Assembly (NCBI RefSeq): GCF_009647605.1
Contig: NZ_WJIF01000007.1
Location: 113,150 to 177,149, forward strand
Length of the DNA stretch: 64,000 nt
From: Agromyces agglutinans
GTDB lineage: Bacteria; Actinomycetota; Actinomycetes; Actinomycetales; Microbacteriaceae
Direction of reading: 5' to 3'
Position numbers and translations under genes: made by a program. The notes beneath the pieces were generated by a model. The model saw only the letters and a list, made by a program, of their open reading frames with translations, was not told the origin of the DNA and did not search any database. Shown here piece after piece: positions 48,346 to 59,875 of this stretch (the first letter of the stretch is position 1; the number at the start of each line of letters is the position of its first letter).

Positions 48346-49287
48346 ATGCCGCAGATCGATCCCCGCCTCGCCCTCGTCTGGCGCTCGCCCGACCGGCTCC
48401 AGCTCGGCGCACCGCAGGCACGCGCGGTCCTCGAGCGACCCTCGCCCGTCGAGCTCGACCTGGTGCGGCTGCTCCGTCGCGGCGTGAGCGTCGCGGCCCT
48501 CGAGGCCATCGCCGCGGGCCTCGACGCACCGGCCGCCACGGTCTCCGACCTGCTCGCGGCGCTGGCTCCCGCACTGCTCGTCGCCGCGGACGCGAGCCCG
48601 TCCGCGGCCGCCGCCCCGGATTCCGCCGAGGCGCCTGCCGCGCCCGCCGGGGAGGTGCTGGTCGTCGGCATGGGGGCCTGCGCCGCTGCCGTCCGCGTCG
48701 GCCTCGGCCTGCTCGGCCATCGCGCGATCGACGCGGCCGGCGACGACGACCCGTACACCGCCGCGCTCGAAGCGCTCGGCGACGACGTCCGGCTCGTGGT
48801 GCTGGTCGCCGAGCGCGTCGTCCGCCCGGCGCAGCACCTGCCGCTGCTGCGACGCGACCTGCCGCACGTGCCCGTCGTGTTCACCGAAACCGGAGCGGTG
48901 GTCGGTCCCCTCGTCGTGCCCGGCGAGACCGCGTGCCTGCGCTGCGTCGATCTCGCGAGGCGCGATGCGGATGCCGCGTGGCCGGCCATCGCGGCCCAAC
49001 TGGTCGACCAGCCCCCGGTGCCTCGCAGCGCGCGGCTGGAGTTCGACGCCGCCGTGACGGCGGTCCGACTCGTCGACGATCGGCGCTCGGCGCGCGGCGA
49101 GCGGCGATCCGATGGCGTGGCCTACCGACTGCCCGAAGACGGCGCGAGCGCCGAACGGCTCAGGTGCGAGCCGCACCCGGAGTGCGGGTGCCGAGCTCCC
49201 GGAGGAATCGCGACGGCTCCCGGTCTCCCCGCTGGCCGCCCGCTCGCCGCGCCCAGCTCAGCTCGAGTCGTCGCCGTGCCCGCGTGA
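48346..49287 (+). CDS. TOMM-type E1-like leader-binding/zinc protein
   Basis: 313-residue protein resembling the TOMM precursor-leader-binding (cyclodehydratase C domain / ThiF-like) family and standing where Rv3196 stands in mycobacteria. N-terminal winged-helix-like part (VELDLVRLLRRGVSVAALEAI), Rossmann-like VLVVGMGACAAAVRVGLGLLG near residue 105, then GETACLRCVDLARRDAD and CEPHPECGC, a likely four-Cys zinc site. No precursor peptide or YcaO gene is nearby, so it is an orphan. A CATGCT box ends 6 bases before the ATG. Its last 42 codons overlap the end of the convergent helicase gene. Confidence 0.78.
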   Translation: MPQIDPRLALVWRSPDRLQLGAPQARAVLERPSPVELDLVRLLRRGVSVAALEAIAAGLDAPAATVSDLLAALAPALLVAADASPSAAAAPDSAEAPAAPAGEVLVVGMGACAAAVRVGLGLLGHRAIDAAGDDDPYTAALEALGDDVRLVVLVAERVVRPAQHLPLLRRDLPHVPVVFTETGAVVGPLVVPGETACLRCVDLARRDADAAWPAIAAQLVDQPPVPRSARLEFDAAVTAVRLVDDRRSARGERRSDGVAYRLPEDGASAERLRCEPHPECGCRAPGGIATAPGLPAGRPLAAPSSARVVAVPA

Positions 49288-50980
49288 TGCCCACGTAGAG
49301 CAGGCGCCGTTCCTCGTCGATCGCCGTGTCGTCCTTGGCGTACGCGATCGGCAGCAGCCCCTCCGAGACGCCGACGATGAACACCTCCTCCCACTCGAGG
49401 CCCTTGGCCGAGTGCAGCGTCGCGACGGTGACCGCCTCGACCGTGGGCTCGTGGTGGGTCTCGGCGCGCGTACGGAGCAGATCGGTGAACTCGCGGAACG
49501 TCGTGCCGGGCGGCACGTCGTCGACGAGCCGTGCGATGGCGTCGAGCGACTCCCAGCGGGCGCGCACGACGCCCTGGCCCTCGGGCGGCCGCACCGACCA
49601 GCCGAGTCCGCGCAGCACGTCGCTCACCGACGAGAACAGCGGGCCGTCGGCGGGCACGAGCGCCTGCGCGCGCAGGTGGTGCACCGCCTCCTTCACCTCG
49701 GGGCGGTCGAAGAAGCGCTGCGCGCCGCGCACGCGCACCGGCACCCCGGCCTCCTCGAGCGCGTGCTCGTAGACGCCGGACTGGCTGTTCACGCGGATGA
49801 GCACCGCGAGGTCGGAGGGCTTCGCACCGGCCCCGATGCGCTCGCGGATGCCCGCCGCGACACCGCGCGCCTCGGCGAACTCGTCGGCGTACTCGACGAT
49901 GCGGGGCGCGGCGGGCTCGGCGGCCGGCCGCGGCCGGTCGTCCGGGGCATCCGCTCGGAGGCGAAGCGCGCCCGCGCGCCCGCGCATCAACCGGTTCGCC
50001 GTCTCCACGATGGGACCGAGCGACCGGTAGTTGCGTTCGAGCCGCACGATCGTGGCATCCGGATACCGTCGCTCGAAGCCCAGCAGGTAGTCGCTCGACG
50101 CGCCCGCGAAGGAGTAGATGGTCTGGCTCGCGTCGCCGACGACGCAGACGTCGGCGCGATCGCCGAGCCACAGCTCGAGCAGTCGCTGCTGCGCGGGCGA
50201 GACGTCCTGGTACTCGTCGACGACGAAGTGGCGGTAGCCCTCGCGCACCTGCATCGCGACGGACGGCTCGGTCTCGATCATGCCCGCCGTGACGAGCAGC
50301 ACGTCCTCGAAGTCGAGCATGCGGCGCTCGTCCTTCAGCTCCTCGTAGGCGGCCATGATCGCGAGGTGCTGCTCGGGCGAGAGCTGCCCGGCGGGGCCGC
50401 GCGACGGCAGCCGCTGCTCGTACTCGGCGGGACCCAGGAGCTGCACCTTGCGCCACTCGATCTCGGCCGCGACGTCGCGGAGGGTCGCGGTGTCGACCTT
50501 CACCTTCGCGCGCTCGGCGGCCTGACCGAGCAGGCGACCCTTGAAGTCGAGCACGCGCGGGGCCGGACCGCCGACGACGAGCGGCCAGAAGTGGCCGAGC
50601 TGGGCGAGCGCGGCCGCGTGGAACGTGCGCGCCGGCACCTGTCCGGCACCGAGCGCATGCAGCCGCGCGCGCAGCTCGGCGGCCGCCCGCGCCGTGAAGG
50701 TGAGCGCCATCACGCGCTTCGGGTCGTACGTGCCCGACGCGACGCCGTACGCGATGCGGTGCGTGATCGCCCGCGTCTTGCCCGTGCCGGCACCGGCGAG
50801 CACGCAGACCGGCCCGATCAGCGCCTCGGCCACGATGCGCTGCTCGTCGTCGAGGCCCGCGAGCAGCGGGTCGACCGCGGGGCCGGTCGCGGCATCCGTG
50901 GCGGGGCCGGTCGCGGCATCCGTGGCGGGGCCGGTCGCGGCATTCGTCGCGGGGCCGGCCGTGGCATCCGTGGCGGGCAT
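49160..50980 (-). CDS. UvrD-family SF1 DNA helicase (UvrD2-like, no HRDC)
   Basis: 606-residue 3'-5' superfamily 1 helicase. Walker A GAGTGKT at 63-69, VDEYQDVSPAQQ (motif II), GDASQTIYSFAGA (III), RLERNYRS (IV), VTVATLHSAKGLEWEEVFI (V) and YVGITRARRRLELSWA (VI). Mycobacterial UvrD2 at this place continues with an HRDC domain and Cys cluster; here the protein stops about 20 residues after motif VI. The N-terminus is a PATDAATG repeat (24-bp DNA units). ATG 50980 has AGGGAG upstream; ATG 51010 is an alternative overlapping nudC. Confidence 0.92.
   Translation of the reverse strand: MPATDATAGPATNAATGPATDAATGPATDAATGPAVDPLLAGLDDEQRIVAEALIGPVCVLAGAGTGKTRAITHRIAYGVASGTYDPKRVMALTFTARAAAELRARLHALGAGQVPARTFHAAALAQLGHFWPLVVGGPAPRVLDFKGRLLGQAAERAKVKVDTATLRDVAAEIEWRKVQLLGPAEYEQRLPSRGPAGQLSPEQHLAIMAAYEELKDERRMLDFEDVLLVTAGMIETEPSVAMQVREGYRHFVVDEYQDVSPAQQRLLELWLGDRADVCVVGDASQTIYSFAGASSDYLLGFERRYPDATIVRLERNYRSLGPIVETANRLMRGRAGALRLRADAPDDRPRPAAEPAAPRIVEYADEFAEARGVAAGIRERIGAGAKPSDLAVLIRVNSQSGVYEHALEEAGVPVRVRGAQRFFDRPEVKEAVHHLRAQALVPADGPLFSSVSDVLRGLGWSVRPPEGQGVVRARWESLDAIARLVDDVPPGTTFREFTDLLRTRAETHHEPTVEAVTVATLHSAKGLEWEEVFIVGVSEGLLPIAYAKDDTAIDEERRLLYVGITRARRRLELSWARRAGGQRGDREPSRFLRELGTRTPGAART
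50882..50977. repeat. 24-bp tandem repeat, four units, in helicase gene
   Basis: Four 24-bp units encode PATDATAG, PATNAATG, PATDAATG and PATDAATG; the last two are identical at DNA level. Recent slippage-type expansion in the disordered N-terminus is likely. Confidence 0.9.
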
Positions 50981-50994
50981 GCGGGCCGGCTCCC

Positions 50995-51966
50995 TCACCG
51001 GGTCGTCCATGGCAGGTCGCTGTCGGGCACGGGGCCGCCGAACCACCCGTCGAGCAGCCAGCGTGCGATCGACGCCGAACCCGGCACGACCACGCCGTCG
51101 TCGGCGGCGGCGGCCAACTCCTCGCGGGTGAACCAGCGCAGTTCGAGGATCTCCTCGCCGTCGGCGCGTGCGGTCGCCGGGTCGACGCCGGCCGCGACGC
51201 GCGCCCGGAACCCGAGCATGATGCTCGCCGGGAAGGGCCACGGCTGGCTCGCCACGTATTCGACCCGGTCGACGGCCACGCCCGCCTCCTCGCCGATCTC
51301 GCGGACGACCGCGGCCTCGAGCGATTCGCCGGGCTCGACGAACCCGGCGAGCAGCGAGAAGCGCCGCTGCTCCCACATCGCGTTCGAGCCGAGCAGCACC
51401 CGATCGTCGTCGTCGGTGACGAGCACGATCACGGCCGGATCGGTGCGCGGGAAGTGCAGGCTCGCATCGGCTTCGCAGCGGCGGGCCCAGCCCGCCTGCA
51501 CCGGCTCGGTCGCCGCTCCGCAGCGCGGACACCGCGGGTGGCGTTCGTGCCACCCGGCGAGCGCGATCGCCTCGGTCGCGAGCGACGCGTGCGCGTCGTC
51601 GAGCACGGTCGCCAGCTGTCGGAGCCCCTGCCATCGTGCCGCCTCGGGCTCGAGCGCGAGCGCGGACTCGTCGTCGAGCACCCGCAGTTCGACGGGCGCG
51701 CCGCCCGGCTGCAGGCGACCGAGGTAGATCCGCAGCGGGGCGGGCGATCCGGCACGCTCCGGCGCGTCGGGCAGCTTCGACGGATGCCGCAGCTCGAGCT
51801 GCGGCGCCGAGCCCTCGACCTGCTGGGCGACGAGGAGCCGACCGGCGTGCACGGCGACGGCCAGCGCCGTCGGGTCGGCGTCGAGGCGTTCGGCCAGGTC
51901 GTCGAGCGCCCGCGCGTCGGCGTCGCGATCGATCAGGGTGCGAGCCAGCGGCGGCAGGGCATGCAC
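50995..51966 (-). CDS. nudC: NAD(H) pyrophosphatase / RNA decapping NudC
   Basis: 323-residue Nudix hydrolase of the NudC type splitting NADH to NMNH and AMP, and in E. coli removing NAD caps from RNA. Nudix box GFVEPGESLEAAVVREIGEEAG is complete (about 215-236) and SQPWPFPASIMLGF is the NudC-specific block. The zinc ribbon CPRCG...RRCEAD has only three of the four usual Cys; the fourth position appears to be Asp. Start is GTG 51966. It stops 14 bases before the helicase start. Same gene order as Rv3199c/Rv3198c. Confidence 0.92.
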   Translation of the reverse strand: MHALPPLARTLIDRDADARALDDLAERLDADPTALAVAVHAGRLLVAQQVEGSAPQLELRHPSKLPDAPERAGSPAPLRIYLGRLQPGGAPVELRVLDDESALALEPEAARWQGLRQLATVLDDAHASLATEAIALAGWHERHPRCPRCGAATEPVQAGWARRCEADASLHFPRTDPAVIVLVTDDDDRVLLGSNAMWEQRRFSLLAGFVEPGESLEAAVVREIGEEAGVAVDRVEYVASQPWPFPASIMLGFRARVAAGVDPATARADGEEILELRWFTREELAAAADDGVVVPGSASIARWLLDGWFGGPVPDSDLPWTTR

Positions 51967-52059
51967 GCGGTTTCCACCTCTCGACGCGGCTCGGACGGAG
52001 TCGGCGGGAAGGCGTGGCGGTCGCCGATCGGGCGAGGTTGCCTGCTTAAGCTGTGTGCC

Positions 52060-53289
52060 ATGGCCAGACCCCCTCTCACTCTAGCCGCGTTGGCCACGGC
52101 GGCGGTGCCCGGACTCGAGGTGCAGGCCGCGGCCGCGCACACGCGCCGGTCGCAGGGCGGGTTCGACGCCGTGCTGCTGCGCACGGGCGACGGGCGCCAC
52201 CTGGTGATCCGCGCACCGCGCTCGCAGGCCGCCGAGTCCGAGCAGTCCGCCGACCTCGTGGCCCTGCGATCGCTGACGACCGGTATCCGCTCGCGCCTGC
52301 CCTTCGCGGTGCCCGAGTTCGTCGGGCAGGCCCCGATCGACGGCACGCGCGCCGTCGTCACCGACCTCGTGCCGGGTGCCGCCCGGTCGGCCGACGAGCT
52401 GACCGCACAGGCCCCGCTCGCCGAGTCGGTCGGCCTCGCGGTCGCCGCGATCCACGGCCTTCCCAGCGCGTTCATCGGCGAGGCAGGGCTCACCCGCCGC
52501 ACCGCGGCCGACTGCCGCGATGAGGTCGTCGACCTCATCGGCCGCTCGGCCGACACCACCCACCTGCCCGCGGCCCTCGAACGCCGATGGGAGGAGGCGG
52601 CCGACGACGCCGCGCTCTGGCGCTTCGAGCCGACCGTCGTGAACGGCTCGCTCACGGCCGATTCGTTCCTCGTCGACGCCGACCACGTCTCGGGCGTCGT
52701 CGGCTGGTCGCAGCTCTCGGTCGGCGACCCGGCTCGCGACCTGCACTGGCTGCTCACCTCGCGCGGACAGGCCGCCGACCGCGCGCTCGAGGCGTACCTC
52801 GTGGCCCGGTCGGGCGCCGCCGACCAGCACCTCCCCCGGCGCGCCCTGCTGTACGCCGAGCTCGAGCTCGCCCGGTGGCTGCTGCACGGCGTCGCCGTGC
52901 GCGACGAGTCGATCATCGCCGACGCTGTGGGCATGCTCGACGGGCTCGTCTCGAGCGTGCACGACCGGTCGAGCGAGCCGCTCGCCGCCGAGACCGGGCC
53001 GATCCTGACCGTCGGCGACGTCGAGCGACTCCTCGACGAGACACCGCGCGACCACGTGCCGCGCGAGGCCGGCGGCGCGATGCTCACCGACGCCTACGAC
53101 TTCTCGGACCTCGAGCGCGTGCACGACGAACCGGTCGGCGACCTCACGGCGCCGATCCCGCTCGACCTCAGCGACTGGGGCGACGCGGCACCGGCCGAGC
53201 CTGCGGCGTCGCCGCCACCCGCATCGGGCGACGCGGCGGCCCGCGCGCACGCTCCACGGCACGACGCACCGCCCCGCGATCAGGACTGA
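52060..53289 (+). CDS. Aminoglycoside-phosphotransferase-like protein, probable pseudokinase
   Basis: 409-residue protein of the APH/choline kinase fold. The fold is recognisable: HLVIRAPR, VGLAVAAIHGLP, VVNGSLTADSFLVDADHVSGVVGWSQLSVGDPARDLHWLL. Active-site motifs are lost: the catalytic HGDxxxxN reads NGSLTADS (Asp to Ser197, His to Asn195), the metal-binding IDW reads VGW (Asp to Gly), and the ATP Lys is Arg. The last 100 residues are a disordered acidic/Pro-rich tail. A TAAGCT box ends 7 bases before the ATG. It overlaps adnB tail to tail by 10 bases. Probably a binding or scaffold protein rather than a drug-resistance enzyme. Confidence 0.75.
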   Translation: MARPPLTLAALATAAVPGLEVQAAAAHTRRSQGGFDAVLLRTGDGRHLVIRAPRSQAAESEQSADLVALRSLTTGIRSRLPFAVPEFVGQAPIDGTRAVVTDLVPGAARSADELTAQAPLAESVGLAVAAIHGLPSAFIGEAGLTRRTAADCRDEVVDLIGRSADTTHLPAALERRWEEAADDAALWRFEPTVVNGSLTADSFLVDADHVSGVVGWSQLSVGDPARDLHWLLTSRGQAADRALEAYLVARSGAADQHLPRRALLYAELELARWLLHGVAVRDESIIADAVGMLDGLVSSVHDRSSEPLAAETGPILTVGDVERLLDETPRDHVPREAGGAMLTDAYDFSDLERVHDEPVGDLTAPIPLDLSDWGDAAPAEPAASPPPASGDAAARAHAPRHDAPPRDQD

Positions 53290-56200
53290 GCGCCGACCTC
53301 CGCGCGTTCGACCCCACCCGCCCCGGCGCCACCGTGGCCGTCGGTGCCAGCCCCGTCGGTGCCATCGGTGATCTCGCCGCGGCCCAGGGCCTCGCTCCAG
53401 GCGAGCCGCAGGTCGCGCTCGTCGGAGAGCTCGCCGGGCCGGATGACCCGGTCGTCCTCCACGAAGTAGAAGCACGCGTCGATCTCGTCGACGGGCACGC
53501 CCGACCAGGTGGAGTACGCCAGCCGGTACAGCGCGAGCTGCGTCTGCTTGAGCGCGAGGTCGCGTTCGTCGCGCGGCGCCTTGCCCGTCTTCCAGTCGAC
53601 CACCTGGAAGCGGATGCCCCGCCGCCCGAGCTCCGAGTCGGGATCGATCTCGTACACGGCGTCGAGCTTGCAGACGAAGACATGCTCGCCCATCGGCAGG
53701 TGCAGTTCGAGCTCGACGGCCGCCGGACGCAGCGCTCCCCATTCGGATGCCTCGAACGTCGCCTGCAGTTCGCGCAGCCGTTCGGGCGCCGGGTCGACCA
53801 GCCGCTCGTCAGCGGGCTCGGCCACCCACGCGAGCTCGTCGGGGCCGACGCCGTCGAGCGCGTCGATGGCCTCGGCGTCGCCCTCGCCGGTCGCGCGGTG
53901 CTCGACCCAGCGGTGGAACAGCGTGCCGATGCGCGTCGCCCGGAACGGGCGCTGCGGCATCGGGCGGCGCAGCTGTTCGGCCACGGCCGCGGGGTCGTCG
54001 ACGTAGTCCTTGAACCTCGAGGCGGGCACGCGCACCGGGATGGGCGGAGCCTCGGGCGGCGACTGACGCCGGCGCCGCTCCTCGAGCAGGAGGTCGAGCT
54101 CTGAGCGCAGCGCCGGCCCGATGCCGGCGCCGGTCGGCCGCTCGGCCGCCTCGCGCACGGCACGCGCCGCGGCCTCGACCGCCGGCCGGCGCGCGCCGAG
54201 CGGATCGAGCGGCCACCGGATGGTCGAGGTCCGCTCGGCGAGCGGGTTCTCGTCGTGCATCGAGGCCACGGGCAGGGCGTCGCCAGGCAGCAGGCCGGCC
54301 TGCACGAGCTCGAAGAGGTACGGGCTCGGCCGGCGCGGCGTCTTCTGCGAGGCCCACCAGGACCCGGTCAGGAGCAGCTCGTCGCGGGTCCTGGTGACGG
54401 CCACGTAGACGAGTCGCCGTTCCTCCTCGAGGTCGCGGGCCGCGTTCTCGGCACGGAACGCCGTCACCGCCTCGTCGAACTCGGCCTGGCTCTGCGACCC
54501 CCGCCACACGAGCTCGGGCAGCTCGTCGCGATCGCCCTTGAAGTCGTTGGGCAGTTCGCCCACCGCGAGCCATCCGGCGGTCGTCCGCGGCTTCGCCGGG
54601 AGCTCGTCGTCGACCATCCGCGGAATCGCGACCACGTCCCACTCGAGGCCCTTCGACCCGTGGATCGTGAGCACCTGCACGGCGCCGGGCTCGGGTTCAT
54701 CTTGCCGGGGCGCCAGCCGGTCGCGCTGCTCGGCCTCGGTGAGCCAGCCGAGGAAGGCGCCGAGCGTGGGCTGCTCGGACACCTCGACGAACCCCGTCAG
54801 CAGGTCGTCGAAGGCCTCGAGGCTCGGGCGCCCGAGCGGCTGGTCGGCATTGGCGTGCACCTCGATGTCGAGCAGCAGTTCCTGTTGCACGAGTGCGACG
54901 AAGTCGACGAGGCCGAGTCCGGCGCGCCGGCGCAGCGACTGCAGCTGCGCGCCGGCGCGACGCATCCGGGCGAGACCGGCCGCGCTGAACGCGGCGAGCG
55001 CGCGGTGGTCGTCGGGCGTGGCGGTGAGGAAATCGAGCGCGTCGATGATCGACGGCGACTCCTCGGGAGCGATCGAGTCGCGGATGCCCTGCCGCACGTC
55101 GGGCTCGAGGCGCCGGCTCGCCGCGTCGCGGTCGGCGAGCCAGCGCGCCAGCGTGCGCAGCGCCGCGAGGTCGGCCGTGCCGATGCGCCAGCGCGCGCCC
55201 GCGAGCACGCGGATGAGCTCGGCGCCGGCCGTCGGGTCGTGCAGCACGCGCAGCGCGCACACGAGGTCGGCGATCACGGGCTGGTCGAGGAGCCCCGCGA
55301 TGCCGAGCACGTGCACCGGGACGCCGCGCTCGCGCAGGGCCTGCACGAACACGCCGACGTTCGAGAAGGTCCGGCAGAGCAGCGCGCCGGACGGCGGCCC
55401 CTCGCCGCCCGACGGCGGTGCCTCGCCGGCGGCCGCTCGCGCCTCGCCGCGGCGTCCGTCGCCGCGGGGCAGCACGCGGTCGGCGAACCAGTCGGCGACG
55501 CGGGCCGCCTCCTCGTCGATCGTCTCGTGCCACGAGACCTCGATCGCGCCGTCGCCCGCGAACGGCGAGGGGCGCAGCGCCGCCTTGGCGACGCCCGAGT
55601 CGAGGGGCGCGATGAGCGCGTTCGCGGCGTCGAGCACGCGCCGCGGGTTGCGCCAGCTCGTGGACAGGTCGAAGACCGAGGCATCCGCGCCCTCGTCGAA
55701 GTCGGCGCCGAATCGCGCGAGGTTCGCCGCGCTGGCACCGCGCCAGCCGTAGATCGACTGGTCGGGATCGCCCACGGCCATCACCGGCGTGCCCGCGAAG
55801 AGGGTCGCCAGCAGTCTGGTCTGCACCACGGACGTGTCCTGGTACTCGTCGAGCAGCACCGACCGGTAGCGGTCGCGATACCCGGCGACGACCTCGGGGT
55901 GGCGACGGCAGATCGCGAGGGCGAGGGCGACCTGGTCGGAGAACTCGACGTACCCGCGCTCGCGCTTGGCGGCCGCGAAGGCGTCGGCGAGCTCGAGCAG
56001 CGGCGGGAGGGCGCCGACCACGCCGAGCGCCTTCGTGAACGACTCGAACGGCGTGCGCTTGCGCGGCGCCCCGAGCGGCAGGTCGCCCATCGCCAGGAAG
56101 TCGCGGGTCCACGCGACGACGTCGCGCGAGTCGGCGACGTTCTCGGCGAGCGCCCGGCTGAGGCTCAGCACGGCCGCCGTGACGCGGTCGAGCGAGAGAT

Positions 56201-56696
56201 CGAGCTCGACCAGGCGCGGATCGGCCGACTGCGCGGCGACCTGGCGGGCGAGCTGCCACGCGGATGCCTCGCCGAGCACGGCCGCGTCGGGCTCGCGGCC
56301 GATGAGCAGCGCGTGCTCGCGGTAGATCGCGCTCGCGAACGAGTGGTACGTGCCGACCGACGCGGCCTCGAGCGGGTCGAGGTCGAGCTCGGCGATGCCG
56401 CCGGCGACGAGCTGCGCCACGCGCTCGCGGATGCGGGCGGCGAGCTCGGCCGCGGCCTTGCGGGTGAACGTGAGGCCGAGCACCTCGGGAACGTCGACGT
56501 GACCGTTGGCGAGGAGCCACACGACGCGGTTCGCCATGGTCTCGGTCTTGCCGCTGCCCGCGCCCGCGACGACGAGGTGCCTGCCCCGCGGGTCGGCCTC
56601 GATGACCGCGCGCTGCTCGGGCGTCGGTGCGTGCAGGCCGAGCCGCGAGGCGATCTCGGCCGCGGCGATGCCGCGCACCTGCGCCGCGCCGCTCAC
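53280..56696 (-). CDS. adnB: AdnB-type helicase-nuclease
   Basis: 1138-residue SF1 helicase with C-terminal RecB-type nuclease, the AdnB motor of the actinobacterial AdnAB double-strand-break resection complex. Seen: Walker A GAGSGKT (45-51), LLDEYQDTSVVQ, GDPDQSIYGWRGA, TIHGSKGLEWDVV, YVAVTRTRDELLL, and nuclease motif CKLDAVYEI...FQVVDWKTG with Asp1034 and Lys1036. A GEAPPSGGEGPPSG insert near 430 is a flexible loop. GTG start overlaps the adnA stop (GTGA). It works with AdnA to unwind and trim broken ends for recombination. Confidence 0.93.
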   Translation of the reverse strand: MSGAAQVRGIAAAEIASRLGLHAPTPEQRAVIEADPRGRHLVVAGAGSGKTETMANRVVWLLANGHVDVPEVLGLTFTRKAAAELAARIRERVAQLVAGGIAELDLDPLEAASVGTYHSFASAIYREHALLIGREPDAAVLGEASAWQLARQVAAQSADPRLVELDLSLDRVTAAVLSLSRALAENVADSRDVVAWTRDFLAMGDLPLGAPRKRTPFESFTKALGVVGALPPLLELADAFAAAKRERGYVEFSDQVALALAICRRHPEVVAGYRDRYRSVLLDEYQDTSVVQTRLLATLFAGTPVMAVGDPDQSIYGWRGASAANLARFGADFDEGADASVFDLSTSWRNPRRVLDAANALIAPLDSGVAKAALRPSPFAGDGAIEVSWHETIDEEAARVADWFADRVLPRGDGRRGEARAAAGEAPPSGGEGPPSGALLCRTFSNVGVFVQALRERGVPVHVLGIAGLLDQPVIADLVCALRVLHDPTAGAELIRVLAGARWRIGTADLAALRTLARWLADRDAASRRLEPDVRQGIRDSIAPEESPSIIDALDFLTATPDDHRALAAFSAAGLARMRRAGAQLQSLRRRAGLGLVDFVALVQQELLLDIEVHANADQPLGRPSLEAFDDLLTGFVEVSEQPTLGAFLGWLTEAEQRDRLAPRQDEPEPGAVQVLTIHGSKGLEWDVVAIPRMVDDELPAKPRTTAGWLAVGELPNDFKGDRDELPELVWRGSQSQAEFDEAVTAFRAENAARDLEEERRLVYVAVTRTRDELLLTGSWWASQKTPRRPSPYLFELVQAGLLPGDALPVASMHDENPLAERTSTIRWPLDPLGARRPAVEAAARAVREAAERPTGAGIGPALRSELDLLLEERRRRQSPPEAPPIPVRVPASRFKDYVDDPAAVAEQLRRPMPQRPFRATRIGTLFHRWVEHRATGEGDAEAIDALDGVGPDELAWVAEPADERLVDPAPERLRELQATFEASEWGALRPAAVELELHLPMGEHVFVCKLDAVYEIDPDSELGRRGIRFQVVDWKTGKAPRDERDLALKQTQLALYRLAYSTWSGVPVDEIDACFYFVEDDRVIRPGELSDERDLRLAWSEALGRGEITDGTDGAGTDGHGGAGAGGVERAEVGAQS

Positions 56697-59600
56697 GCGG
56701 ACACCGCCGGCACGACCTGCACGCGGTACTGCCAGCCCGCGAACCGCGACCGGAACGGCAGCTCGGCCGCGGTCTCGAAGGTGGCGCCCGCCATGTTGCG
56801 CGCGACACCGTCGAGCCGTTCGAGGAAGGCGGCCTCGGCCTCGTCGTCGAAGGGCTGCTGGGCGCGTTCGGAGTACGCCGTCGCGCTCATGGGCTTGGCG
56901 ACGTAGACGAGCTTCGCGCCGCCCAGCCGGCCCGCGTTCGGCACCGCTCCCCCGCGGGCCGCGAGCTGGTACGCGGCGAGCTGCGGATGCCTCGCGGTCT
57001 CGGGCCCCGTCGGCAGGTGCGACCCCGTCTTCAGGTCGACGATGACCGTGGTGCCGTCGGGCGACGCCTCGACGCGGTCGATGGTGCCGGTGAGCCGGGC
57101 CCGGCCCGCGATCAGCGTGAACCGCCCCTCGGCGCCGAGCAGTACCTTTCCGTCGTCGTCGAACGTCGCGAGGTACTCGGCGGCGCCCTCGGTCATGCGC
57201 CGGGCGCCGCGCCGTTCGCGTTCGGCGGCCCATCCGGCCTCGACGTGCAGGGTCGCCAGGCGCGCCTCGACGTCTGCCCAGAGCGCCTCGACGCTGACCT
57301 CGCCGTCGGTGCGTGCGCCCGCCGCCTCGACCACCGCGTGCACGATGGTGCCGATCGAGGCCGCGAGGCCCGACGGCGGCGACGCGACGTGGTCGACGAA
57401 CCAGCCGAGGCCCGACTCCTCGGCCCGGTCGATCTGCGAGGGCGACACGTCGACGAGCGCCTCGGGGTCGCCGTCGAGGTCGACCAGCGGCGCCTCGGTC
57501 GACGGCTCGCGCAGGCCGTACCACTCGTCGGGATGCGCGCCGGGGATGCCGGCCTCGGCGAGCATCGCGAGCGCCGGCGCCGCCTCGCCGGCCGGTGCCG
57601 CGGCGACCTCGCGGCGCAGCGCCCCGACGAGCCCGCGCAGGTGCAGGGGCCGGCGGCGCGACGGCCGCACGCGCTCGGGGGCGTACCCCATGAGCACCGA
57701 CGGCTGCTCGTCGTCGTTCGCGGTGCACGACAGCACGAGCTGCCGGCACGCGCGCGAGATCGCGAGGGCGAACAGTCGCAGCTCGTCGCTGCGCACCGAG
57801 ACGCGGGCCTCGGCGACCGTCTCGGGAACCGGCATCGGCTCGCCCGAACGCGCGGCCGCCACCGCGCGCGGCAGGAGCGCGGCGTGCAGCAGGGTGCCGC
57901 GCGGCCGCAGGTTGGGCCATACGCCCTCCTGGAGGCCGGCGACCACGACGACGTCGAAGGCCCGCCCGACGAGCGCCGACGGCGTGCCGACGAACACCGT
58001 CTCGGCGCTGCGCTGCGGCGCGAGCGAGTCCTCGGGCAGTTCGCTCGCGAGCACCTCGTCGATGAATCGTCCGGGTGGTGCGCCGGGCGAGCGCTCGACG
58101 AAGCGCTGCGCGGCGGAGAACAGCGCGACCGCGGCATCGAGAGAGCGGTTCGCCTCCTCGGCGAGCACGCCCGTGCCGGAGGCCTGACCGCCCCACTCGG
58201 TCGCGAGCCCGCTGCCGTCCCACAGCGCCCAGAGCACCTCCTCGATCGTGCCGCCGCGCACGGCCGTGCCACGGGCCGCGGCGAGCAGCTTCGCGAGCCG
58301 TCCGGCCCGGCGCGCGGGCGCCGCGTCGATGGTCTCGAACCCGCCGGGCGCGCCGAGGGCGTCGACGAGCAACTCCTCGGCCGTGCGATCGCCGCCCGCG
58401 GCGAGCTCCTCGTGGCGCAGCGCGAGCCGCAGCCGCCGCAGCCCGACGGCGTCGAGGCGGCCCAGAGGGCCCGTCAGCAGGTCGACCGCGAGCTCACCGG
58501 AGAGCTCGTCGCGCTGCAGCGCGACCGACGCCGCCGCGAGCAGCGCCGCGGCGACGGGGGCATCCTTCAACGGCATGCGCGCCACGGCGCCCGCGGTCGG
58601 TACATCGGCGAGCGCGAGTCCGCGCTCGAACGCGGGCACGTCGCCGCCGGAGCGCAGGACGACCGCCATCGCCGACCAGGGGATGCCGTCGAGCAGGTGC
58701 CGTTCGCGCAGCAGCGCGGCGATCGACTGGCACTCGGCCGCGTGGGACGGCGCCTCGATGCCGAGCACGGGCCCGAGCGGATCGGCATCTCGCGCGACCG
58801 GCTCGGCCGGCACGGCGCGATGCGTGCCGCCGAGCGCCGCTCCGATGCGGCCGGTCACCTCGGCGACGAGCCGGTGCAGCGCAGGCCGGCCGCGACGGCG
58901 ACCCGTGAGCTCGATGCGCTCCACGGGCACGCCGCCGAGCACGCCAGCCAGCGAGCCGAGCAGTTCGGGGCGGCCGCCGCGGAACCCGTTGCCGGCGACG
59001 TCGGGGTCGCCGAGCGCGATGACGGCGACGCCGCGGGCGGCGAAGCCGGCCAGCAGCGCGGCCCCCGCCTGCGTCGCCTCTTGCGCGTCGTCGACCACGA
59101 CCAGGCGCAGCCGCGAGAGCGTGCCGAGGGCGCGTTCGGCATCGGCGTCGCCCGACATCGAGCGCGCGAGCACGGCCGCGGCGTACGCGCCGAGTTCGGC
59201 CGAGTCGTACTGGGCGCCGCGCACGAGCTCCTTCACGTCGGCGTACTCGTCGAGGAACTCGCCGGCCGCGACCCACTCGGGGCGCCCGGCGGCCTCGCCG
59301 AGCCGGCGCAGCGTCGTGCCGTCGGCGCCGTGCTCGACCGCGCGCATCACGAGCTCGCGCAGCTCGGCGCGGAACCCGCGCAGCCGGCGCACTTCGTCGG
59401 TCAGCGGGTCGGGCCACGCCGGCCCCCCGCCGTCGCGCGCCTCCGCGTCGAGCAGTTCGGCGATCAACTGATCGTGCTCGGCGCCCGTGAGGAGCGTCAC
59501 GGGCTCGCCCGCGTCGGCGCGCACGAGCTGGAAGGCGATCGAGTTCGCCGTGCGCGCCATCGGCCCGCGGGAGGTGACGCCCAGCCGCACCGCGATGCGG

Positions 59601-59875
59601 TCGCGCAGCGCCGTCGCCGTCGCGCGGCTCGCGGAGATGACGAGCACGTCCTCGACGTCGTAGCCGCGGCGCTCGATGCGGTCGGCGACCACGTCGACGG
59701 CGAGCGTGGTCTTGCCCGAGCCCGGGGCGCCGAACACCGCCGCGGACGCGCCGTCGGCGAGGGCGAGCACCCGTTCACGGCCCGGATCGACCGCCTCCAC
59801 CGCGTCGACGGAGGCCGCGTCGTCGTGGATCCTGACGACGGCGGGATCGGCGATCGTGGCGGGTGCGCGGTGCAT
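56693..59875 (-). CDS. adnA: AdnA-type helicase-nuclease
   Basis: 1060-residue partner of AdnB. N-terminal SF1 part with Walker A GAPGSGKTT (49-57), a weakened motif II VVVDDAQEAT (DDAQ in place of DEYQ) and GDPDVAGNGFRGG; C-terminal RecB-type nuclease with GTIDRVEAS...VIVDLKTG (Asp947, Lys949). In mycobacteria AdnA contributes one nuclease and a minor motor, fitting the weakened helicase motifs here. A TAGCGT box ends 6 bases before the ATG (leaderless). Divergent from the DUF3107 gene, 92 bases between. Confidence 0.92.
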   Translation of the reverse strand: MHRAPATIADPAVVRIHDDAASVDAVEAVDPGRERVLALADGASAAVFGAPGSGKTTLAVDVVADRIERRGYDVEDVLVISASRATATALRDRIAVRLGVTSRGPMARTANSIAFQLVRADAGEPVTLLTGAEHDQLIAELLDAEARDGGGPAWPDPLTDEVRRLRGFRAELRELVMRAVEHGADGTTLRRLGEAAGRPEWVAAGEFLDEYADVKELVRGAQYDSAELGAYAAAVLARSMSGDADAERALGTLSRLRLVVVDDAQEATQAGAALLAGFAARGVAVIALGDPDVAGNGFRGGRPELLGSLAGVLGGVPVERIELTGRRRGRPALHRLVAEVTGRIGAALGGTHRAVPAEPVARDADPLGPVLGIEAPSHAAECQSIAALLRERHLLDGIPWSAMAVVLRSGGDVPAFERGLALADVPTAGAVARMPLKDAPVAAALLAAASVALQRDELSGELAVDLLTGPLGRLDAVGLRRLRLALRHEELAAGGDRTAEELLVDALGAPGGFETIDAAPARRAGRLAKLLAAARGTAVRGGTIEEVLWALWDGSGLATEWGGQASGTGVLAEEANRSLDAAVALFSAAQRFVERSPGAPPGRFIDEVLASELPEDSLAPQRSAETVFVGTPSALVGRAFDVVVVAGLQEGVWPNLRPRGTLLHAALLPRAVAAARSGEPMPVPETVAEARVSVRSDELRLFALAISRACRQLVLSCTANDDEQPSVLMGYAPERVRPSRRRPLHLRGLVGALRREVAAAPAGEAAPALAMLAEAGIPGAHPDEWYGLREPSTEAPLVDLDGDPEALVDVSPSQIDRAEESGLGWFVDHVASPPSGLAASIGTIVHAVVEAAGARTDGEVSVEALWADVEARLATLHVEAGWAAERERRGARRMTEGAAEYLATFDDDGKVLLGAEGRFTLIAGRARLTGTIDRVEASPDGTTVIVDLKTGSHLPTGPETARHPQLAAYQLAARGGAVPNAGRLGGAKLVYVAKPMSATAYSERAQQPFDDEAEAAFLERLDGVARNMAGATFETAAELPFRSRFAGWQYRVQVVPAVSA

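Follow-up and report, generated by a model that had tools for sequence, protein, structure and literature searches.

The window analysed here, a 64,000-nucleotide stretch of DNA from Agromyces agglutinans, carries a gene for a kinase-like protein among candidate DNA repair genes, and the question raised by this locus is what such a protein does there once its catalytic residues are gone. The gene, which we call kin (52060–53289, + strand), is an open reading frame that starts with ATG, encodes 409 amino acids, matches PF01636 and has orthologues across the order. A preliminary description of this DNA had read it as a probable pseudokinase and suggested a non-enzymatic role in DNA repair or nucleotide signalling.

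The kin product has a macrolide kinase-like fold that lacks both catalytic acids

By fold, the kin product belongs to the APH superfamily. PF01636 matches residues 33–261 with 59.8 bits, compared with a Pfam gathering score of 23.2, and an AlphaFold2 model delimits an APH/Mph-fold domain at residues 1–303 (52060–52968, + strand). The model has a mean pLDDT of 82.4, exceeding 90 in nearly all 10-residue blocks of residues 1–300, and was computed from 50 sequences that, by their record titles, include no other member of the Microbacteriaceae. The closest solved structure by VIA-align is that of MphH (5uxc, Z 26.2 over 283 residues), with MphA at Z 25.7, and Foldseek placed the same two proteins on top. 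Compared by sequence with solved structures, kin came nearest to MphA (5igh, E 5e-17) and then to MphH, and a search with the family profile gave 127.8 bits for MphA and 111.5 bits for MphH. These results bear out the clear APH-like fold noted in the preliminary description. Similarity to PF01636 occurs at seven places in the A. agglutinans genome, among which kin ranks third.

The two acids that mark an active enzyme of this superfamily, the Asp of HGD and the metal-binding Asp of I-D-W, are both missing. Residue reading places N195-G196-S197 (52642–52650, + strand) at the position of HGD and V214-G215-W216 (52699–52707, + strand) at that of I-D-W, exactly the substitutions first described; MphH, when aligned with kin, has Glu instead of the catalytic Asp and retains the metal Asp. 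The replacement of the ATP-binding Lys by Arg had been listed alongside these changes. The residue was read correctly, being R51 (52210–52212, + strand) at the beta-3 Lys position, where 229 of the 249 loci described below have Arg, but the active enzymes MphA and MphH also carry Arg there in the alignment, so R51 is no argument for inactivity and the change was ruled out as a mark of it. Two acidic residues in G-D-P-A-R-D-L (residues 222–228; 52723–52743, + strand), Asp223 and Asp227, are invariant in all 249 loci, and H132 deviates solely in one copy with a broken frame, so that all three are invariant in the 248 intact copies. Both the fold (the model, a Z of 26) and the loss of the catalytic acids (the residue tables) are strongly established, and a kept kinase fold without its catalytic residues is the hallmark of a pseudokinase.

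Loss of the acids is fixed in the Microbacteriaceae and probably recurrent in the order

We read these residues in 249 loci, 111 from the Microbacteriaceae (f1) and 138 from other families of the order, two genomes being present twice among the latter (L046/L191 and L156/L187). Most family counts leave out the broken copy, L064, and refer to 110 of the 111, representing 77 genera. None of these 110 intact copies keeps both acids; the catalytic Asp occurs alone in three (L078, L086 and L128) and a metal-site Asp or Glu in nine. Elsewhere in the order the catalytic Asp is present in 125 of 138 loci, a metal-site Asp or Glu in 46 and both in 40 (123, 45 and 39, respectively, when the 136 distinct proteins are counted), and the metal-site residue of the 40 is Asp in 34 and Glu in 6. 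The substitutions are thus fixed across the family, as a pseudokinase would require, and because loss of the both-acid state is family-wide, kin is not the single decayed gene that the preliminary description had named as the alternative.

Names are attached to 76 loci, 71 with a family name, none of them Microbacteriaceae, and 5 without one; the coded family f6 and the Micrococcaceae are possibly one family. All six named Demequinaceae loci and both Ruaniaceae loci have both acids, and HGD combined with Gly at the metal site is found in 38 of 38 Micrococcaceae and 9 of 11 Promicromonosporaceae loci. In families that have the catalytic acids, kin may still encode an enzyme.

On a tree of 142 rows (2 of the 249 were removed and the rest thinned), at least 8 changes at the catalytic site and 19 at the metal site are needed. 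This tree was a quick one built without the catalytic columns, with 48 of its 139 inner branches open and many weak; well-supported branches alone force at least four changes in the "both kept" label. These counts carry no direction, but acids of this kind are found in MphA as well as in the intact orthologues, and the repeated changes at the two sites therefore probably reflect loss rather than gain.

Constraint on kin is relaxed at the catalytic position

The kin domain is under purifying selection. Its dN/dS in 14 congeneric pairs ranges from 0.022 to 0.308 (median 0.08), and that of the tail from 0.128 to 0.506 (median about 0.26); the pairs L093/L094 (saturated), L215/L218 (0.136) and L236/L239 (0.062) stand outside the median. 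At the catalytic column the family has A in 38 copies, S in 35, G in 16, T in 7, Q in 6 and other residues in the remainder, which ranks it 217th of 305 columns in conservation. The domain dN/dS and the invariant residues show that selection still maintains kin at the protein level, with looser constraint on the catalytic residue. A loss that is fixed, under purifying selection and without decay, as dN/dS and retention indicate here, is the pattern of a pseudokinase.

Positions around the old site differ between the intact orthologues and the family (L238, L254, L058, L059 and L064 are omitted from these comparison groups). Five positions after the HGD Asp, 30 of the 40 intact orthologues have His or Gln and 93 of the 110 family copies have Ser, and column 65 is Glu in all 40 and Asp in 82 of 110. 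The family consensus at the old site is Asn195 (73/110), Ser202 (93/110) and Gly215 (98/110). R51, P53 and G196 are retained in 103, 106 and 106 of the 110, respectively.

kin is an order-specific core gene

An orthologue of kin was found in 296 of 299 Microbacteriaceae genomes, in 291 of 297 genomes sampled across the order at a completeness of at least 90% and in 57 of 60 relatives, the A. agglutinans genome being counted in each set. The three family genomes in which kin was not detected are drafts of 130–240 contigs, 84–95% complete, and the six from the order consist of 250–1060 contigs each. In a class-wide sample of 246 genomes, 21 genomes of the order were among those listed, all with at least 276 bits, whereas the best listed match outside the order reached 107 bits; 27 genomes without a match were absent from this listing, which leaves their order membership out of view. 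kin is thus an order-specific core gene, and it is retained in Microbacteriaceae genomes of about 0.9–1.5 Mb. One of these, a 0.9 Mb genome (G074) whose locus has a G+C content of 45% compared with 75% for the window locus, keeps both kin and its adnB neighbour and has no match to NudC. In a congener, G006, the reading frame of kin is broken (L064, 5908–7110), through either decay or a sequencing error. None of 10 longer or divergent orthologues scanned showed fusion of kin to a repair protein, APH being the only domain above its cut-off. We found no description of kin in an open full-text library, which leaves out most subscription papers.

kin occupies a conserved position beside candidate recombination genes

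Upstream of kin and divergent from it lie nudC (50995–51966, − strand; NF001299, 220.4 bits, cut-off 158) and a UvrD-like helicase gene (49160–50980, − strand, with a start chosen by us; PF00580 and PF13361), which by analogy with mycobacteria is putatively uvrD2. Downstream of kin and convergent with it is a gene for a protein with UvrD helicase and PD-(D/E)XK domains (53280–56696, − strand, again with a start chosen by us), followed by one for a protein with UvrD-N and PD-(D/E)XK domains (56693–59875, − strand); by their resemblance to the architecture of mycobacterial AdnAB, these are presumably adnB and adnA. As first described, the 3' end of kin overlaps the end of adnB by 10 bp (53280–53289).

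The position of kin between NudC and AdnB, near repair genes, also proved as constant as had been proposed. Of the 249 loci, some of which end at contig ends or at the limits of the fetched stretch, 229 have a divergent NudC and 235 a divergent UvrD2 on the upstream side of kin. On the downstream side, 221 have a convergent AdnB, which lies no more than 150 bp from kin in 175. Such counts for AdnB and UvrD2 are those of a conserved neighbourhood, as would be expected of an accessory protein of AdnAB or UvrD2.

Co-occurrence was read in 45 kin-bearing genomes, most picked for small size or broken synteny and some of them incomplete. NudC had no match in 11 and a weak one (E 2e-4 to 9e-4) in 2, and because 13 of the 45 keep kin without a convincing NudC, NudC is no obligatory partner of kin. 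AdnA was matched at E<1e-25 in 29 of the 45. Of 15 genomes from family f4, 14 showed weak similarity to AdnA and 1 none, and a further genome that is 78% complete (G139) had a weak match. In f4 genomes (G039, G593, G631, G670 and others) the weak similarity lies within open frames of 1284–1681 amino acids; the resection nuclease of this family has perhaps diverged or been replaced.

Where synteny is broken, different neighbours persist. Two f4 loci (L058 and L059) and one f20 locus (L053) have kin beside UvrD2 with AdnB absent from the stretch, and another f20 locus (L180) has both. Two f3 loci (L052 and L054) have AdnB downstream with UvrD2 absent from the stretch; L141 and L142 keep UvrD2 and NudC. 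Because no single neighbour is always kept, a role in repair stays a hypothesis drawn from position. Of the two roles suggested in the preliminary description, DNA repair is possible on these grounds, and nucleotide signalling is weakened by the genomes that have kin and no convincing NudC.

A leaderless-type promoter is conserved upstream of kin

A −10-like element, TAAGCT (52047–52052, + strand), lies 7 nt before the ATG of kin. The pattern TAnnnT is present 5–8 nt ahead of the start codon in all but one of the 111 family loci (110) and in 127 of the 138 loci from other families, compared with a mean of 4.3 and a maximum of 8 of 249 in shuffled upstream sequences. Because this element is so close to the start in nearly all loci, the kin mRNA is likely leaderless. 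Further upstream, 27 nt from the −10 element, is the octamer GCGTGGCG (52012–52019, + strand), and 86 of the 111 family loci have it at a spacing of 25–27 nt from that element. Across the whole window the octamer shows no enrichment (15 occurrences, 19.9 expected). Before kin the octamer is non-coding, the distance of 37–40 nt to the ATG representing all three frames. A scan of the 249 upstream regions for SOS box and PafBC-type motifs gave 0 matches.

The combined pattern GCGTGGCG-N24-28-TANNCT-N5-8-ATG matched kin in 18 of 20 family genomes, together with four places read as ruvA. It had a match in 122 of 150 family genomes, and a reversed control pattern gave 11 matches in all; among the matches listed, 40 places, mostly away from kin, were inspected, and by our reading ruvA accounts for 20 of these, in one case with a short frame. 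A promoter common to kin and ruvA, and with it a repair regulon, was nevertheless rejected. At 24 of 24 ruvA places the sequence from the octamer onward lies within the upstream coding sequence, the octamer falling in conserved C-terminal codons (...TPAQxAWRxAEKS...RRL-stop) of a gene read as RuvC. Because that region is conserved coding sequence, the sharing with ruvA is an artefact; of the 24 places, only 4 have a TAG that is the ruvC stop. ruvA was also located in the A. agglutinans genome. The pattern also recurs before genes named by reading as dnaQ-like (L307, L309 and L329), purE (L310, L311, L320 and L321) and parA (L315 and L332) in a few family genomes, and a sensor-kinase-like gene (L326 and L327) was a further recurrent match. 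The matches before dnaQ-like genes, purE and parA could be due to chance or, like those at ruvA, to coding sequence.

The acidic tail carries a family-specific peptide at constant spacing

Residues 304–409 (52969–53286, + strand) form a tail that is modelled at low confidence and is acidic and proline-rich (15% D, 7% E and 14% P in residues 310–409), as the preliminary description had stated of a 100-residue tail. The first conserved element in it is V318-G-D-V-E-R-L-L325 (53011–53034, + strand), which the model draws as a low-confidence helix over residues 318–325. By pattern search, 76 of the 110 family copies, from 48 of 77 genera, carry the family type V-x-E-V-E-x-L-L, whereas shuffled tails gave on average 0.2 genera; in 73 of these copies it begins 14 residues past residue 304. 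It is missing from 31 to 34 of the 110 tails, depending on the pattern used, and in several genera the protein terminates a few residues beyond it. In other families of the order it was found in 0 of 138 loci, 88 of them with a tail 25 residues long or longer. A second element, T343-D-A-Y-D-F-S-D-L-E (53086–53115, + strand), is of a T-D-x-Y-D type that 44 of the 110 family copies share, although these represent only 12 of 77 genera.

From its fixed distance after the folded domain, the first element could be a docking peptide; the AlphaFold2 model, in which the tail has low confidence, makes no prediction of how it would dock. The VxEVExLL peptide at a fixed distance and the conserved leaderless-type promoter of kin are new here.

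Possible functions of kin

We propose, with a probability of about 0.6, that kin encodes a pseudophosphotransferase of the Mph/APH fold in which phosphate transfer has stopped, and that the order has retained it as a core gene locked in position, whose product binds a partner. Its conserved function would then not need phosphotransfer, the two-lobed domain could sense a ligand or provide a scaffold, and docking on a partner protein would fall to the tail peptide. That the function is non-catalytic, whatever the partner, seems highly probable to us. We are more tentative in suggesting, from position, that the partner is a repair protein, for which we see somewhat less than an even chance; it would then be the adjoining recombination/repair helicase, AdnAB or UvrD2. 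Counting against the proposal are the finding of no repair-protein fusion in the 10 orthologues scanned, the persistence of kin in the f4 genomes, where AdnA is weakly matched or missing, the 0 matches to SOS box and PafBC-type motifs, and the family tails in which the peptide is missing. The fullest version is speculative and, taken whole, rather unlikely: an order-wide pseudophosphotransferase, derived from an antibiotic-kinase-like ancestor, would regulate DNA-end processing by AdnAB and/or UvrD2 or contribute to it as a dedicated accessory subunit. The dead pocket would sense a ligand, and the tail helix, which occurs in the one family where both acids are never kept together in an intact copy, would dock on the helicase.

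The alternative that survives best is that the kin product is a sensor whose pocket takes up a nucleotide or a small metabolite, that it has no repair partner and that the gene owes its position to a frozen old gene order. We regard this as possible, with a distinctly lower chance than partner binding. The retention of R51, P53 and G196 in the family is consistent with it, as is the existence of MphA and MphH structures with guanosine or GDP in the same fold. The entire neighbourhood is conserved order-wide, so synteny need not mean a common function, and at the broken loci kin stays beside UvrD2 (f4 and f20) or near AdnB (L052 and L054) with no neighbour constant. However, the columns expected to bind metal or phosphate (197, 202 and 215), together with column 65, are altered in the family, and the tail peptide at its fixed distance points to a protein partner.

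Lost catalytic residues are no proof of inactivity, because some pseudokinases, SelO and SidJ among them, reportedly catalyse other reactions. By analogy, kin might catalyse a different reaction at a rebuilt site, for instance through Arg51, His132, Asp223 and Asp227, and the new family consensus of Asn195, Ser202 and Gly215 could be taken as such a site. We consider this improbable: H132, D223 and D227 are common to orthologues that have the catalytic acids, and position 197 is variable. In addition, a structural His and Asp pair is retained in spore pseudokinases, according to PMC2860764, and in our reading H132 and D227 of kin would match that pair.

That kin is decaying and about to be lost is very improbable, in spite of its lost catalytic residues and the one broken frame in G006 (or sequencing error), given a domain dN/dS of at most 0.308, its retention even by small genomes among the 296 of 299 in the family that have it, and positions invariant over 77 genera. 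Least credible is that kin is still a macrolide or aminoglycoside kinase conferring resistance, since, although MphA and MphH are its nearest profiles and structures, the catalytic and metal Asp are gone, the best NCBIfam model, MphA, scores 60.3 bits against a cut-off of 550 and the remaining listed Mph models (cut-offs 500–650) score lower still, and even the orthologues L181 and L196, which are intact, stay well short of every Mph cut-off. A macrolide-kinase function was rejected on this basis, and the occurrence of kin in 291 of the 297 order genomes also speaks against a resistance gene.

In kin, a resistance-kinase fold has probably given up catalytic residues repeatedly at one fixed chromosomal address. 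Intact and dead kin orthologues are directly comparable, which makes the purpose of a dead kinase testable. Core genes of this order with Mph/APH similarity should not be counted as macrolide-resistance genes.

Comparison with known systems

The nearest relatives by structure are MphA and MphH (PDB 5igh and 5uxb-d; PMC5760710), with which kin residues 1–303 share the two-lobed fold (VIA-align Z 24–26), the L-P-F-A-V-P (in MphA), R-W and D-P-A-x-D motifs and the beta-3 Arg. Unlike these enzymes, to which it has 22–25% identity, kin lacks the catalytic and metal acids, has a tail, falls under the Mph cut-offs and is a core gene of its order beside the AdnAB locus.

Two other systems touch on single aspects of kin. 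The Ser/Thr pseudokinases ActPs1-3 are likewise actinobacterial with degraded catalytic motifs, and ActPs2 has Arg at the beta-3 Lys position; they are, however, protein-kinase (bSTK) families, and the main text of PMC12599244 uses the term "APH" 0 times. In mycobacteria, the interaction of dUTPase with AdnAB, as given in PMC13309787, offers the case of a nucleotide-metabolism protein that modulates AdnAB, although dUTPase is a different protein from kin.

A similar pattern of loss is seen in the spore kinases (BSK, YtaA-CotS), which according to PMC2860764 are related to aminoglycoside and choline kinases and include several classes predicted to have lost catalysis independently while retaining the structural His and Asp. 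kin resembles them in having lost the catalytic Asp and, in our reading, kept the His and Asp. In contrast to the BSK proteins, which that source describes as spore-coat proteins with several classes per family, kin is a one-locus orthologue of the Actinomycetales, set in a DNA-repair neighbourhood and bearing a family-specific tail motif.
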